A stretch of 54,703 bases of DNA from positions 1-54,703 of IMG/VR virus record IMGVR_UViG_3300042888_002801; one strand, given 5' to 3'. Below, in pieces: positions 16,685-33,796 of the stretch. Under the pieces are notes generated by a model. The model ran no database searches. It was not told the DNA's origin and saw only the letters and a list, made by a program, of their open reading frames with translations. Numbering within the stretch: the first letter of the stretch is position 1; the number at the start of each line of letters is the position of its first letter. The DNA comes from a virus. A program made the translations under genes and the position numbers.

Positions 16685-17884
16685 ATGGCAGATTCCATTG
16701 TTCATTGTAGTTTTTGTGCCAAACACAAAGATCAAGTAGTCAAACTTATTGTGGGCAACAATGCAGCTATCTGTGATGCCTGTGTGGATTTCTGTGAAAA
16801 TTTACTCAAAGACAGAAAAAAAACTGCCACGGCCAATGCAACTAAATCCACAGTGCTGGATCCTGGAGATATTAAAAATTTTTTAGATCAACATGTGGTG
16901 GGACAAGATTCAGCAAAAATAGTTTTATCAGTGGCCATTGCCAATCACTACAAACGTATTGGTAATTTAGATACCAATGTAGAAATACAAAAAGTCAATA
17001 TATTAATGACTGGACCCACTGGCACTGGTAAAACATTACTGGCAAGAACTGTGGCAAAATATCTAGATGTGCCATTTGCAGTGGCCGACGCCACTTGTCT
17101 CACTGAGGCAGGATATGTGGGTGATGATGTAGAAAGTCTGATAGGAAGATTGTATGCAGCAGCCAATGGTGATGTTCAACGATGTCAGCGTGGTATAGTG
17201 TTCCTGGATGAAGTTGATAAAATAGCAAGAAAAAGCGAAAGTGCCACAGTTGCCCGAGACGTGTCCGGTGAAGGTGTTCAACAGGCCTTGCTCAAATTGA
17301 TTGAAGGTACCAAGTGCAAAGTGTCTGCACATGGAAATCGTAAATCCGGTGATACCATAGAAATTGACACAACTAATATACTGTTTATTGCTGGTGGTGC
17401 ATTTGTGGGGTTAGATGCCATAGTAAAAAACCGTGTGCAAGGTACCACCATGGGATTTAGTGCAAATTTCAGCAGTGACATACATCTTGTCCAGGAACCA
17501 GTGATCCCCGATGACTTGGTCCGATACGGAATGATTCCTGAATTTGTGGGCCGATTTGGAAGCTGTGTTAATTTACAAGCGTTGACTAAACCGCAGTTAA
17601 TTAATATTTTAACTGAAATAAAACACAATGTTATCAGTCAATACAAATGGTTGTTTGATCAAGATGGTGTTGCACTAGAATTTGATCCAGACAGTTTGGA
17701 TCTCATAGCAGAACGTACATTGCACACAAAAACAGGCGCCAGAGGGTTACACATTGAACTAGAACGTGCATTGCTACCGCATATGTTTGATCTACCAAAA
17801 TATAAACGACAAAACATACTGCAAGTGGTCATCAATAAAGAGTTGATAAATACTCCTATGACACTGATACAAGAAAATTCATGA
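16685..17884 (+). CDS. clpX: ClpX-like ATP-dependent unfoldase
   Basis: AAA+ unfoldase that recognises, unfolds and translocates proteins into ClpP. It has the whole ClpX plan: N-terminal zinc-binding domain (C8, C11, C30, C33), Walker A GPTGTGKT (110-117), pore loop GYVG (143-146), Walker [10 protein letters not shown], arginine-finger region EFVGRFG, and sensor-2 GARGL. The ClpP-docking loop, IGF in E. coli, is MGF (256-258), and the substrate-gating RKH loop is RKS (219-221). At 399 residues it is near full length. Overlaps the bS21 gene by ATGA. Phage clpS and clpP genes lie at 18730 and 33221. Confidence 0.95.
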
Positions 17885-18107: not shown

Positions 18108-18136
18108 TTTACATTTAATCACTTTTAATCTATAAT
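18108..18136 (+). promoter_or_regulatory. Sigma70 promoter for hsp20
   Basis: TTTACA, 17-base spacer, TATAAT. Predicted transcription start near 18143, immediately before the structured leader. Confidence 0.78.
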
Positions 18137-18145
18137 AAATAACTG

Positions 18146-18171
18146 TGTAGATGCCGATGGTCGGGTCTATA
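18146..18171 (+). promoter_or_regulatory. 5'-terminal structured leader of hsp20
   Basis: TGTAGAT (18146-18152) pairs with GTCTATA (18165-18171); then an unpaired G, then CCGA/TCGG with a 3-base loop. The same architecture with different bases precedes the phasin gene at 32785-32812. Both are followed by GCTTAATAAAGGA, here at 18185-18197. Confidence 0.65.
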
Positions 18172-18205
18172 TTAAAGTCATCTTGCTTAATAAAGGAGAA
18201 AACAA

Positions 18206-18664
18206 ATGACAAAAACTCTCACACTTCGTAGTTTCGACATTCCTGCAATTCACAAATTTGGTATTGGTTTTGATAACTTATTTGATGATCTAATGCGTGT
18301 AAATGCTCAACAAGCCAACAACAACTATCCACCCTACAACATTGTACAGATCAACGATGATGAGTATATGATCAGTATTGCGGTAGCAGGTTTTGGCCAT
18401 GATAATTTGTCAGTTACAAAAGATAAAAACTTTTTGATTGTTGAAGGCACACATGCAGCTGAAACTGTGGAAAACAATGATTCTACGGCAGTATTTTTGC
18501 ACAAAGGAATCAGCGAAAGAAGTTTCCGTAGGGAATTTCAATTGGCAGATCACGTAGAAATTAACAATGCAAATCTTGAATTGGGGATTTTAACCATTCA
18601 TTTAAAACGTGAAGTACCTGAAGAAATGAAACCAAAGAGCATTGCAATTACCTATACAAACTAA
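18206..18664 (+). CDS. Small heat-shock protein, Hsp20 (alpha-crystallin) family
   Basis: A 152-residue ATP-independent chaperone that holds unfolding proteins. The alpha-crystallin domain spans about residues 42-140, with ANLELGILTIHL as the conserved A-x-x-x-G-I-L signature and the C-terminal I-x-I motif IAI for oligomer contacts. Preceded by a clear promoter, a hairpin leader and GGAG. Small heat-shock genes are known from T4-like cyanophages, where capsid or photosystem roles have been suggested. Here it lies with clpX and clpS. Confidence 0.93.
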   Translation: MTKTLTLRSFDIPAIHKFGIGFDNLFDDLMRVNAQQANNNYPPYNIVQINDDEYMISIAVAGFGHDNLSVTKDKNFLIVEGTHAAETVENNDSTAVFLHKGISERSFRREFQLADHVEINNANLELGILTIHLKREVPEEMKPKSIAITYTN

Positions 18665-18670: not shown

Positions 18671-18677
18671 AGTAAAT

Positions 18678-18701
18678 ACACAGTGGAGAGCAGTCTCCAC
18701 T
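18678..18701 (+). promoter_or_regulatory. 5'-terminal hairpin in the clpS leader
   Basis: ACAGTGGAGA pairs perfectly with TCTCCACTGT around GCAG, with no T run after it, so it is not a terminator. It starts within a base or two of the predicted transcript start; AATAAAGGA follows before the ATG. Confidence 0.65.
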
Positions 18702-18729
18702 GTACAATTATACCAATAAAGGAATGCCG

Positions 18730-19038
18730 ATGTCACAATCAGATACTGCCAAAAAAATACAAGTTAATCACGACATCAAGGAGCCACCAATGTTCAAGGT
18801 GATATATGTCAATGACAATCAGACTTCGGTGGAATTTGTAATTGAAAGTCTAGTTAGTGTGTTTAGTTATAATACTGATACTGCACTGAAAATTACCGAA
18901 AACATACACACCGAAGGCAGTGCAGTGGTAGCGGTATTACCTTATGAGATTGCTGAACAAAAAGGTGTCGAAGTGACATTGTCAGCAAGAAGCCAAAATT
19001 ATCCATTACAACTGAAATTAGAACCAGAACTGGTCTAA
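18730..19038 (+). CDS. clpS: ClpS-like N-degron adaptor
   Basis: Adaptor that binds proteins with destabilising N-terminal residues and hands them to a Clp unfoldase, ClpA in proteobacteria. The ClpS core is clear: PPMFKVIYVNDNQTSVEFV, the helix VSVFSYNTDTAL, the conserved His in ENIHTEG and the C-terminal YPLQLKLEPE. I prefer ATG 18730 over 18724 because AAAGGA is then at normal spacing. No ClpA is encoded here; the adaptor may serve host ClpA or work with the phage ClpX. Confidence 0.9.
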   Translation: MSQSDTAKKIQVNHDIKEPPMFKVIYVNDNQTSVEFVIESLVSVFSYNTDTALKITENIHTEGSAVVAVLPYEIAEQKGVEVTLSARSQNYPLQLKLEPELV

Positions 19039-31999: not shown

Positions 32000-32021
32000 T
32001 CCAAAAATTGATAAGTAATTG

Positions 32022-32726
32022 ATGAATGAACTTATTGCCACCTTGGTGATGACACACATCACCATAGTGTGTGTTACTTTGTATCTACACCGCGGGCAAG
32101 CACATCGCGGCATACTTTTTCACCCTGTGCTAGAACACTTCATGCGAGCCTGGCTATGGCTCACCACAGGCATGGTTACCAAACAGTGGGTAGCAATACA
32201 TCGTAAACATCACAGATTCACAGAAGAATCTGGCGATCCACACAGCCCACATGTGTACGGAATTCTTAGAATTTTATTTCGCGGCGCTGAACTGTATCAT
32301 TCGGCCAGCAAAGACTCTGAGATGGTGCAACAATATGGCGCAGGCACACCCAACGATTGGCTGGAACAAAACGTATACACCAAGCACAGCCGCCTGGGTA
32401 TCTTGCTCATGTTACTGATAGATCTATTGCTGTTTGGTTATTGGGGCGTGTTAATATGGATTATCCAAATGATATGGATCCCATTCTGGGCGGCAGGTGT
32501 AATCAATGGGTTAGGACACTGGTGGGGGTATCGAAATGGTGAAACCAAAGATCACAGTAGAAACATTGTTCCTTGGGACATTGTTGTTGGTGGCGAATGC
32601 CTGCATAATAACCATCATTTGGATCCTGCTAACCCTCGACTGAGCCGTCGTTGGTTTGAATTTGATGCAGGCTGGATGTGGATACAAATTTTTAAATTTT
32701 CTAGGTTATTGACTTTAAAAAATTAG
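32022..32726 (+). CDS. Fatty-acid desaturase, membrane di-iron type
   Basis: Inserts a double bond in acyl chains, changing membrane fluidity. All three His boxes of the delta-9 acyl-CoA/lipid desaturase group are present: HRGQAH (23-28), HRKHH (60-64) and HNNHH near residue 200. Hydrophobic segments surround them as expected for the integral membrane fold. 234 residues, shorter than the usual 280-330, yet with the complete iron site. ATG 32022 is preferred over the TTG one codon before. Lipid remodelling near a phasin gene is notable. Confidence 0.9.
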   Translation: MNELIATLVMTHITIVCVTLYLHRGQAHRGILFHPVLEHFMRAWLWLTTGMVTKQWVAIHRKHHRFTEESGDPHSPHVYGILRILFRGAELYHSASKDSEMVQQYGAGTPNDWLEQNVYTKHSRLGILLMLLIDLLLFGYWGVLIWIIQMIWIPFWAAGVINGLGHWWGYRNGETKDHSRNIVPWDIVVGGECLHNNHHLDPANPRLSRRWFEFDAGWMWIQIFKFSRLLTLKN

Positions 32727-32784: not shown

Positions 32785-32812
32785 ACAAGACGCTGCATAG
32801 GGCGGGTCTTGT
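32785..32812 (+). promoter_or_regulatory. 5'-terminal structured leader of the phasin gene
   Basis: ACAAGAC (32785-32791) pairs with GTCTTGT (32806-32812), then an unpaired G, then C-T-G-C with G-C-G-G around a 5-base loop. Same shape as the hsp20 leader with compensating changes. GCTTAATAAAGGA follows at 32822-32834. Confidence 0.68.
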
Positions 32813-32841
32813 TAACATTTCGCTTAATAAAGGAAAATAAA

Positions 32842-33105
32842 ATGTTCGCATTAGATAACACAATCGACTCTATTCAAACCAGTCAAAAAACTTTCGTTAA
32901 AACTTTTGTTCAAAATGAAACAATTGCAGATACACTCAACAAACTAGTTGATACCAACGCCGAATACTCCAAAAAGGCTGTTAAATTGGGTGCTGACACA
33001 ATGGCTACTTTGGTCGAAGAGGCCACCAAATTTGCTCAAACTGCTGGTAAATTTGATTACGCTAAAATGGTTGAAGAGTTTACGCCAAAAGCAAGTAAAA
33101 AATAA
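32842..33105 (+). CDS. Phasin-like granule-associated protein
   Basis: An 87-residue amphipathic helical protein: SIQTSQKTFVKTFVQNETIAD, then TNAEYSKKAVKLGADTMATL and VEEATKFAQTAGKFDYAKM. Heptad-like Ala/Thr/Lys pattern and the ending EFTPKASKK resemble PhaP-type phasins that coat polyhydroxybutyrate granules, although bacterial ones are usually about 190 residues. Strong AAAGGA site, own promoter and UUCG terminator, so it is a single-gene unit likely expressed at high level. Confidence 0.72.
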   Translation: MFALDNTIDSIQTSQKTFVKTFVQNETIADTLNKLVDTNAEYSKKAVKLGADTMATLVEEATKFAQTAGKFDYAKMVEEFTPKASKK

Positions 33106-33123: not shown

Positions 33124-33156
33124 AAAATCCAGTATTTCGATACTGGATTTTTTTTT
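33124..33156 (+). terminator. Rho-independent terminator after the phasin gene
   Basis: 12-bp stem AAAATCCAGTAT/ATACTGGATTTT around TTCG, then a run of T. Confidence 0.95.
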
Positions 33157-33220: not shown

Positions 33221-33796
33221 ATGACCACACCAGACTCAGACACCAATGTAAAAGATCATTCACAGCTGTTGAACGATACAGGTATGTATGTTTTTATGGG
33301 TCCAGTGGACGATGAAGCCATCAAACCTATCATTGAATGGATTCTTGTTGAAAATCATGTGGTCAAGAAAAAGAAAAAAGAACTGCTACTAATGATCTGC
33401 AGTGAAGGCGGCGATCTCCAAAGTGCGTTTGCACTGATAGATGTGATGAATGCCAGTAGTATTCCGGTTAAAACCATTGGACTAGGACAAATTGCCAGTG
33501 CAGGACTGTGTATATTCATTGCAGGGGCCAAGGGCCGCAGGGTTCTTACACCCAACACAAGTATTCTAAGTCATCAGTACAGCTGGGGCAGTGACGGCAA
33601 AGCACATGAATTGTTTGCACAGGTAAAAGAATACGAACTCACATTTCAGCGCATGTTAGAGTTGTATCGTAATGCAACTGGATTAGATGACGACGCCATA
33701 CGCAAATACCTGCTGCCGCCACAGGATGTTTGGCTAAGTTCCAAAGATGCATTGGAATTGCACATCTGTGACTATGTGAGTGATCTCAAGAAGTAA
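33221..33796 (+). CDS. clpP: ClpP-like serine protease
   Basis: Peptidase subunit that degrades proteins threaded in by a Clp unfoldase. Catalytic triad by comparison with E. coli ClpP: S93 (GQIASAGLCIF), H118 (ILSHQYSWG) and D169 (PPQDVWLS). The oxyanion loop reads ICSEGGD in place of the usual NSPGG. 191 residues. It does not neighbour clpX (16 kb away) but shares the genome with clpX, clpS and hsp20. No ribosome site is clear before the ATG. Convergent with the next gene, stops abutting. Confidence 0.9.
   Translation: MTTPDSDTNVKDHSQLLNDTGMYVFMGPVDDEAIKPIIEWILVENHVVKKKKKELLLMICSEGGDLQSAFALIDVMNASSIPVKTIGLGQIASAGLCIFIAGAKGRRVLTPNTSILSHQYSWGSDGKAHELFAQVKEYELTFQRMLELYRNATGLDDDAIRKYLLPPQDVWLSSKDALELHICDYVSDLKK

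Follow-up and report, generated by a model that had tools for sequence, protein, structure and literature searches.

The closest described counterpart of the RNA element analyzed here is the ROSE thermometer of Pseudomonas ibpA, which folds into two hairpins. According to the published account of this element (Krajewski et al. 2013, PMC3669281), hairpin I is stable and hairpin II, in which the motif U(U/C)GCU lies over the Shine-Dalgarno (SD) sequence, melts on heating. The Pseudomonas ROSE element is described there as opening between 25 and 42°C, with hairpin II alone giving thermoregulation, and perfected pairing of the anti-SD strand shuts expression off; in P. putida, a second upper G-C clamp also mattered. 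ROSE-like elements have been reported before bacterial ABC transporter genes (2024, PMC11342760), and the λ cIII leader and the Salmonella groES leader are listed as RNA thermometers (PMC4166951). As far as these two sources go, thermometers in phages, thermometers on groES, and ROSE-like elements with targets other than small heat shock genes were thus each already known. Our searches of the open-access PMC literature returned no report of a ROSE element in a phage, and the open-access papers searched gave no account of how phage hsp20 genes are controlled.

The window, i.e., the whole stretch of DNA that was analyzed, is a 54.7-kb virus record in which the leaders of an hsp20 gene and of a phasin-like gene are copies of one two-hairpin RNA element; the leader elements, the genes that they precede, the Clp genes, and the hairpin after the phasin-like gene all lie on the plus strand. 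The hsp20 gene (18206..18664, 152 aa) matches Pfam HSP20 (1.4e-15) and the IbpA model (1.1e-39, below the cut-off of that model). Upstream of it lie a promoter-like stretch at 18108..18141 (TTTACA at 18108-18113, a 17-nt spacer, and TATAAT at 18131-18136; 11 of 12 sigma-70 matches) and an overlapping ATAAATA box at 18135-18141, which we take to resemble a T4 late promoter. Of 75 sibling leaders, 48 have such a box a short distance upstream, in most cases at the same position, compared with a background of 1.1%. With a start a few nucleotides past the promoter-like stretch, hairpin I would stand at the 5' end of the message; the mRNA probably begins at or near this hairpin. Hairpin I occupies 18145..18172 with an unpaired G at 18153, as indicated by folding, covariation, and the ROSE_3 alignment described below. 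Hairpin II, at 18181..18199, places the anti-SD strand over the SD with an unpaired G at 18185, as indicated by the minimum free energy fold and by covariation. It contains the ROSE motif UUGCU (18183..18187) and the SD AAGGAG (18193..18198), which ends 7 nt before the ATG.

The second copy precedes the gene for a phasin-like small helical protein of 87 aa (32842..33105). Its hairpin I spans 32785..32812 with an unpaired G at 32792 and is supported by folding and by the model searches described below. Its hairpin II spans 32818..32836 with an unpaired G at 32822, contains the motif UCGCU (32820-32824) and the SD AAGGAA (32830-32835), and is supported by folding and by compensatory changes relative to the hsp20 leaders. 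The sequence-only reading had proposed that the hairpins before the two genes share a lower stem, an unpaired G, and a 4-bp upper stem, and folding confirmed this shape. The folding energy of hairpin I is -10.9 kcal/mol in the hsp20 leader and -14.0 kcal/mol in the phasin-like leader, and 6 and 0 of 200 dinucleotide shuffles, respectively, fold equally well as the isolated hairpins. For the whole leaders, the corresponding numbers are 15 of 200 for hsp20 (z -1.57, a weak signal) and 0 of 200 for the phasin-like gene. That reading had also noted an identical 13-mer after both hairpins; GCTTAATAAAGGA does occur exactly twice in the record, both times at these leaders, and is the part of hairpin II that runs from the unpaired G through the upper stem and loop to the SD. 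The latter reads UCUU-G-CUU(AAUA)AAG-GAGA before hsp20 and UUUC-G-CUU(AAUA)AAG-GAAA before the phasin-like gene, in both cases closing over the SD. The hsp20 leader joins GGAG with CUU and the phasin-like leader GGAA with UUC, i.e., a C-G pair at the SD became U-A and a U-G pair became C-G, so that the SD and its partner changed together. A model search of the window found these two elements only.

Genes for proteolysis flank both loci: clpX (16685..17884; Pfam zf-C4_ClpX and AAA_2) lies upstream of the hsp20 leader and lacks the element, clpS (18724..19038; Pfam ClpS, 7.4e-23) directly follows hsp20, and a clpP-like protease gene (33221..33796; Pfam CLP_protease, 1.7e-27) directly follows the phasin-like gene. 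The phage thus carries a small proteostasis set around the two putative thermometer genes. By eye, a clpS-like gene also stands 3' of hsp20 in two other phage loci (L381 and L403). A 13-bp inverted repeat at 18677-18706, between hsp20 and clpS, is terminator-like on the minus strand, and an intrinsic-terminator-like hairpin follows the phasin-like gene at 33124..33151. Directly upstream of the phasin-like leader lies a fatty acid desaturase gene (32019-32726; Pfam, 2.3e-14); in bacteria, this enzyme has a temperature-related function.

No Rfam family reached its cut-off in the window. The ROSE_3 family (RF02523) nevertheless aligned to the hsp20 leader over model positions 1-69 of 69, including both hairpins, with a score of 25.0 bits versus a gathering cut-off of 43 bits, and it aligned end to end to five of the seven other phage loci given. 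The contention of the sequence-only reading that no named RNA family has this form is contradicted by this full-length alignment and by the same two-hairpin form of the Pseudomonas ibpA ROSE. A distinct, unnamed RNA family was rejected on three grounds, namely the ROSE_3 alignment, the ROSE leaders of Pseudomonas (two of which score 78.9 and 48.7 bits with ROSE_3), and the performance of the phage model R1, which finds the ROSE leader in all ten Pseudomonadaceae loci given (23-37 bits). None of the phage leaders tested reached the ROSE_3 cut-off (best, 38.7 bits in L245); the 20 named-phage loci gave no ROSE hit at cut-off and sub-threshold ROSE_3 hits in three (34.1, 21.8, and 20.1 bits). Rfam gave no ROSE hit for the phasin-like leader of the window or for six dnaK, groES, and phasin-like loci, and no ROSE family other than ROSE_3 was listed at E ≤ 10 in the scans that covered the window hsp20 leader with the seven other loci, the phasin-like leader, and the named phages. 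Since the cut-off is not reached, we do not file the element as a member of ROSE_3. The structural features of the broader ROSE-like class that were examined are present: in the 3'-proximal hairpin, the motif U(U/C)GCU pairs imperfectly with the SD and leaves a G unpaired, and a 5' hairpin precedes this SD hairpin; as for the typical target, a small heat shock gene, the hsp20 leader conforms and the phasin-like leader departs. The PhotoRC-II family of cyanophages was considered because one match group (L009) looked like cyanophage psbA; it was rejected, as Rfam gave ROSE_3 and no PhotoRC-II and the genes concerned were hsp20.

As compared with the Pseudomonas ibpA ROSE as described (PMC3669281) and with ROSE_3, the phage element has the same two hairpins, a hairpin I of the form GAU-G-CCGA..UCGG-GUC with its unpaired G, a U(U/C)GCU anti-SD in hairpin II, the hsp20 start next to it, and a length of ~65 nt. 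It differs in being phage-borne, in an AU-rich upper stem and loop (GCUUAAUAAAGGAG) that lacks the second upper G-C clamp, in scoring below the ROSE_3 cut-off, in preceding dnaK, groES, and the phasin-like gene as well, in often following an ATAAATA box, and in occurring in up to three copies per phage contig. The classical ROSE elements of rhizobia (ROSE1, B. japonicum hspA) and of E. coli ibpA share U(U/C)GCU over the SD and small heat shock genes as targets (PMC3669281), but they have three to four hairpins. The elements of the ABC transporter genes (PMC11342760) share UUGCU and a place outside the small heat shock genes; they are bacterial, and a text search of that paper for 'phage', 'viral', and 'dnaK' gave no occurrence. 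In λ cIII, as summarized in PMC4166951, the translation of a phage mRNA is likewise set by a temperature-dependent leader structure, although that leader opens when cool and serves a different target. The Salmonella thermometer of the same source is also a groES leader but a bacterial one. We consider it very probable that each of the two window leaders is a ROSE-like RNA thermometer. The sequence-only reading had named an RNA thermometer among its suggestions, and that part stands; it had seen hairpin I alone and overlooked the SD hairpin, the would-be sensor.

Conservation of the element beyond the window was assessed by pattern scans of IMG/VR. The pattern CGGGTCT-N6..30-CTTAATAAAGG occurred in 91 stretches, 55 of which also matched a 5'-arm pattern that the scan had not used, followed by the start of hsp20 or of a phasin-like gene; the other 36 gave no 5'-arm match, and by eye at least one of them (L068) is also an element. 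A second scan returned 97 stretches and added more elements. The 107 elements parsed, which include three copies of the window's own, stand before hsp20 (94), before a phasin-like gene (11), or before neither (2); L221 was dropped as a chance match before alignment A1. Among 65 distinct phage leaders, 97.7% of the cells pair (95.4% for helix 2, i.e., hairpin II), and 80 cells are changed on both sides, compared with 14.9 in shuffled controls and at most 21 with slid partners, although the search patterns fixed parts of hairpins I and II and only the remaining pairs of this set are free evidence. This restriction does not apply to the 76 leaders fetched by hsp20 protein, in which 96.5% of the cells were paired and 206 double-change cells were counted versus 52.6 in shuffles and at most 44 with slid partners, in an alignment fitted to the model, which favors the structure. 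The double changes in this set cover all 11 pairs of hairpin I and three of the seven pairs of hairpin II. The motif U(U/C)GCU is present in 74 of the 76, and the unpaired position of the anti-SD is G in 74 and A in two. Overall, the pairs covary strongly; the search for further instances with pairing kept returned such instances and did not refute the element.

The phasin-like leader was recognized by a model from which it had been withheld. Model R2 comprised 57 phage leaders, 56 of them before confirmed hsp20 and the other before a truncated ORF, and excluded both window leaders and every phasin-like leader. It scored the window phasin-like leader at 49.0 bits (E 1e-10) and that of the window hsp20 gene at 76.9 bits, and it found all six other phasin-like leaders given (43-55 bits). 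Because the R2 training leaders had been found with strings from the window, the test was repeated with model R3, whose 76 training leaders had been collected through the hsp20 protein with no DNA pattern; one of them precedes a phasin-like gene. R3 scored the hsp20 and phasin-like leaders of the window at 66.9 and 41.4 bits, respectively, and again found six of six others (38.6-52.5 bits). Four further records (G313-G316), of which one hardly differs from the window in this region, carry both the hsp20 and the phasin-like elements, and in L404/L302, the phasin-like gene and hsp20 stand together behind one element. These results strongly support the earlier suggestion that a shared 5' RNA element regulates the two genes jointly. 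The label "phasin" itself fared less well and is kept here as phasin-like, the protein being at best a tentative member of that group: Phasin_2 scores the window protein at 15.1 bits versus a cut-off of 24.9, with weak matches below cut-off in three of 11 members (best E 0.0073). No phasin model was listed in NCBIfam and no PHROG matched at E ≤ 0.001, and a PDB sequence search with the phasin-like protein gave nothing relevant. Its AlphaFold2 model, with a mean pLDDT of 66.7 (low confidence), consists of four helices.

We further examined how widely the element precedes phage hsp20 genes. Matches to hsp20 at E ≤ 1e-5 were found in 508 of 50,697 phage records, a few of which are probably host DNA, and the sample consisted of the best 80 of 598 phage candidates by protein similarity (39-86% identity), which are close to the query. 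The element precedes hsp20 in 75 of these 80 loci, plus one phasin-hsp20 pair: 76 loci match at E ≤ 0.06, and the next ORF is hsp20 in 75 and a phasin-like gene in one. The four loci of the 80 that match neither R1 nor R3 are L298, L330, L335, and L342, and by eye L330 and L342 hold a variant. In the same 80 loci, U(U/C)GCU...AGGAG occurs 73 times in leaders and twice elsewhere on the plus strand, whereas the 188,658 nt of the opposite strand do not contain it. Among named phages, matches lie just before hsp20 in six of six (Melnitz-3, S-PM2, P-SSM2, HTVC115P, Phosso, and S-PRM1; 51.7 to 14.7 bits, weakest E 0.14). Of 14 further cyanophages, 13 have an R1 match before hsp20 (E ≤ 0.092), and the fourteenth, S-CAM1 (L692), lacks an R1 match and has an R3 match at E 0.01. 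These further phages were 12 from a 16-row list plus H17 and H9 from the hsp20 matches; H73 (suspected host DNA), H88 (a 1.7-kb fragment), and H77 and H82 (conspecific with H76 and H81, respectively) were left out. The hsp20 start is preceded within 40 nt by U(U/C)GCU...AGGAG in all 20 named phages, where for S-CAM3 (L696) a start upstream of the annotated one was used. S-CREM1 (L697) carries the element at 25.8 bits; the Rfam search reported by its authors, as given in PMC9964418, listed abiF, wcaG, manA, and glnA RNAs. In P-SSM2, a manA RNA (L268 800-997, 181.6 bits) lies upstream of the thermometer-like hsp20 leader, placing two structured RNAs in one neighborhood.

The gene order in several of these phages bears on whether the hairpins are instead an operator at which a phage or host RNA-binding protein, such as RegA, represses translation. 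The translation repressor gene regA lies directly upstream of hsp20 in S-PRM1, S-PM2, ACG-2014f, S-CAM1, and P-TIM68 and one gene further up in P-SSM2, and the G-CC...GGG parts of hairpin I are conserved in sequence. The outer stem of hairpin I, however, varies freely in sequence with its pairing kept, the element also precedes dnaK and groES in other phages, and ibpA in Pseudomonas has the element with hairpin II alone described as conferring thermoregulation (PMC3669281). We regard a protein-bound operator as very unlikely and continue with the thermometer reading.

The SD hairpin alone also led to other targets. A scan for CTYGCTTAATAAAGGAG returned at least 117 places; among the matches listed, 107 precede hsp20, and the other ten comprise dnaK (4), groES (1), phasin-like genes (2), truncated starts (2), and one probable chance match. 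A second scan, for TYGCTTANNAAAGGAAA, gave at least 114 places parsed, six of them before phasin-like genes by phmmer and seven more by eye; most of the other places listed are, from their upstream sequence, probably chance matches. Loci of dnaK and groES were then collected with queries from L381 and L436, respectively. The element itself had led to both queries, and the counts below include them (L573 and L653). In the best 80 of 598 dnaK candidates, which are close to the query (77-100% identity, query included), an R1 match lies directly before dnaK in 73 of the 78 loci with room upstream. A second match precedes the gene after dnaK in 71 loci, that gene being hsp20 in 70, and 66 loci have both matches. 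Of the five loci without an R1 match before dnaK, R3 matches four at E < 0.01 and L652 at 0.45. The element is present in seven of 18 phage groES loci (query included), and the remaining 11 have a plain ribosome site and no element, thus forming a natural negative control. In 437 kb of these loci, there are 151 matches at E ≤ 0.1, and each immediately precedes dnaK, groES, or the gene that follows dnaK. Counting against generality, neither the element nor a clear SD was found at three dnaK genes of distant phages, one in Lak-B4 and two in huge-phage records.

Three contigs (G302, G311, and G312) have three elements each, on dnaK, groES, and hsp20. In one of them, the 26-kb record 3300008262_006041 (L436/G311), dnaK, groES, a groEL-like ORF, and hsp20 lie close together, and dnaK, groES, and hsp20 each follow a thermometer-like leader of their own. 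The 356-kb jumbo phage record 3300023174_000036 (L592/G304) contains dnaK and hsp20, each with an element.

In the proposed mechanism, hairpin I would remain stable, close to the 5' end of the mRNA or directly at it, and help the leader fold, and at low temperature hairpin II would pair the imperfect anti-SD U(U/C)GCU with the SD and hide the latter from ribosomes. As an infected cell warms, hairpin II would melt, and the chaperone would be translated without a protein regulator. Melting in the physiological range and the resulting control of translation are suggested by analogy with the Pseudomonas element. The presence of the same leader before heat-shock genes in many phages, together with its likeness to ROSE, implies that phages probably switch on their own chaperones in heat. 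Nearest-neighbor folding predicts that the chance of an open SD rises from 0.087 at 20°C to 0.142 at 42°C for the window hsp20 leader, a smaller rise than the median of 2.6-fold for 13 control genes. For the phasin-like leader, the predicted chance increases from 0.008 to 0.075 over the same range. The Melnitz-3 leader is predicted to be open throughout, and in the whole-leader simulation, leaders and controls were not distinguished. When hairpin II is modeled in isolation, the predicted half-opening temperature has a median of 59°C for 32 phage hsp20 hairpins and 67°C for two phasin hairpins, compared with a median at the 80°C upper limit of the model for 48 bacterial ROSE elements; these absolute values are not credible, since Pseudomonas ROSE is described as opening between 25 and 42°C. 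The ranking, in which phage hairpin II is modeled as weaker than that of bacterial ROSE, may hold. The upper stem of the phage SD hairpin is A/U-rich and has no counterpart of the second upper G-C clamp needed in P. putida, so that the hairpin may open at a lower temperature or repression may be leaky.

The weak simulated melting of the window hsp20 leader would also be expected if hairpin I simply shielded the mRNA from decay and GCTTAATAAAGGAG were a strong ribosome site, with no temperature sensing; the stability of hairpin I and its nearly fixed distance after the ATAAATA box in the 48 of 75 leaders noted above agree with such a 5' stability element. This explanation leaves unaccounted for the anti-SD motif with its unpaired G in 74 of 76 leaders, the compensatory changes at the SD, the bias toward chaperone genes, and the likeness to the Pseudomonas thermometers, and the 11 phage groES genes with plain ribosome sites do without such a leader. 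We therefore consider it unlikely and retain the thermometer reading.

On balance, we lean toward the broader view that large-genome phages possess a protein-free heat-shock regulon, in which one ROSE-like family on hsp20, dnaK, groES, and a phasin-like gene, with up to three members per contig, would need less heat to open than bacterial ROSE does; the family would be widespread at phage hsp20 genes, including those of well-studied cyanophages, and have been overlooked by annotation. As far as our searches show, it is new that such a clade is carried by phages, that it precedes most of the phage hsp20 genes examined, and that phages also use it on dnaK, groES, and the phasin-like gene. If this view is correct, phages sense the heat of the host by RNA alone and time their chaperones accordingly, and four or more gene families have recruited a single RNA family. 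The phage dnaK, groES, and phasin-like genes would extend the targets of ROSE-like elements beyond the ABC transporter genes described in PMC11342760 and into viruses. Such thermometers would bear on the effects of warming on phage infection in lakes and oceans, and the cultured phages S-PM2, P-SSM2, Syn19, HTVC115P, and Melnitz are suited to direct testing.

In bacterial genomes, the hairpin I pattern followed by AGGAG occurred in at least 120 stretches, with 85 before hsp20 among the matches listed; 84 of these 85 are in Pseudomonadaceae by record title, and the other is L179. In broader bacterial sampling, matches to the phage model are rare: with strict filters (E ≤ 1e-4), R1 matches four of 299 Pseudomonadota genomes, including the centre genome, in all four cases before hsp20. 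Since hsp20 genes of pseudomonads have a leader of this kind too, phages might have acquired hsp20 and its leader together from a bacterial donor, with the leader having lost its function. Strong covariation among phages, elements on genes other than hsp20, and retention of the element in most phage hsp20 leaders examined make such a relic extremely improbable, and the thermometer reading is preferred here as well. The exceptional L179 belongs to the Rhodobacteraceae bacterium Water_Bin34 MAG (G002), which has eight element matches. In seven contig stretches of this MAG, seven matches precede hsp20 and one, in the first 60 nt of L675, precedes a non-chaperone ORF. The apparent bacterial multi-copy case is weakened by T4-type replication genes, identified by eye, beside hsp20 on the two contigs read gene by gene (L675 and L681), which makes it likely that phage contigs were binned into the MAG. 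The element-like leader of L675 (1-330, 25.5 bits) counts against a strict chaperone rule, and its 89-aa ORF is a possible further target.

Among 15 element records tested, the T4-type capsid protein Gp23 and portal were found in one (G304) and terminase in two (G304 and G305); the other records may be fragments without Gp23, portal, or terminase, and their phage origin is as assigned by IMG/VR. Just upstream of one phage groES, at L656 997-1305, lies a tmRNA gene of the permuted, betaproteobacterial type (Rfam, 127-129 bits), which hints at a betaproteobacterial host.
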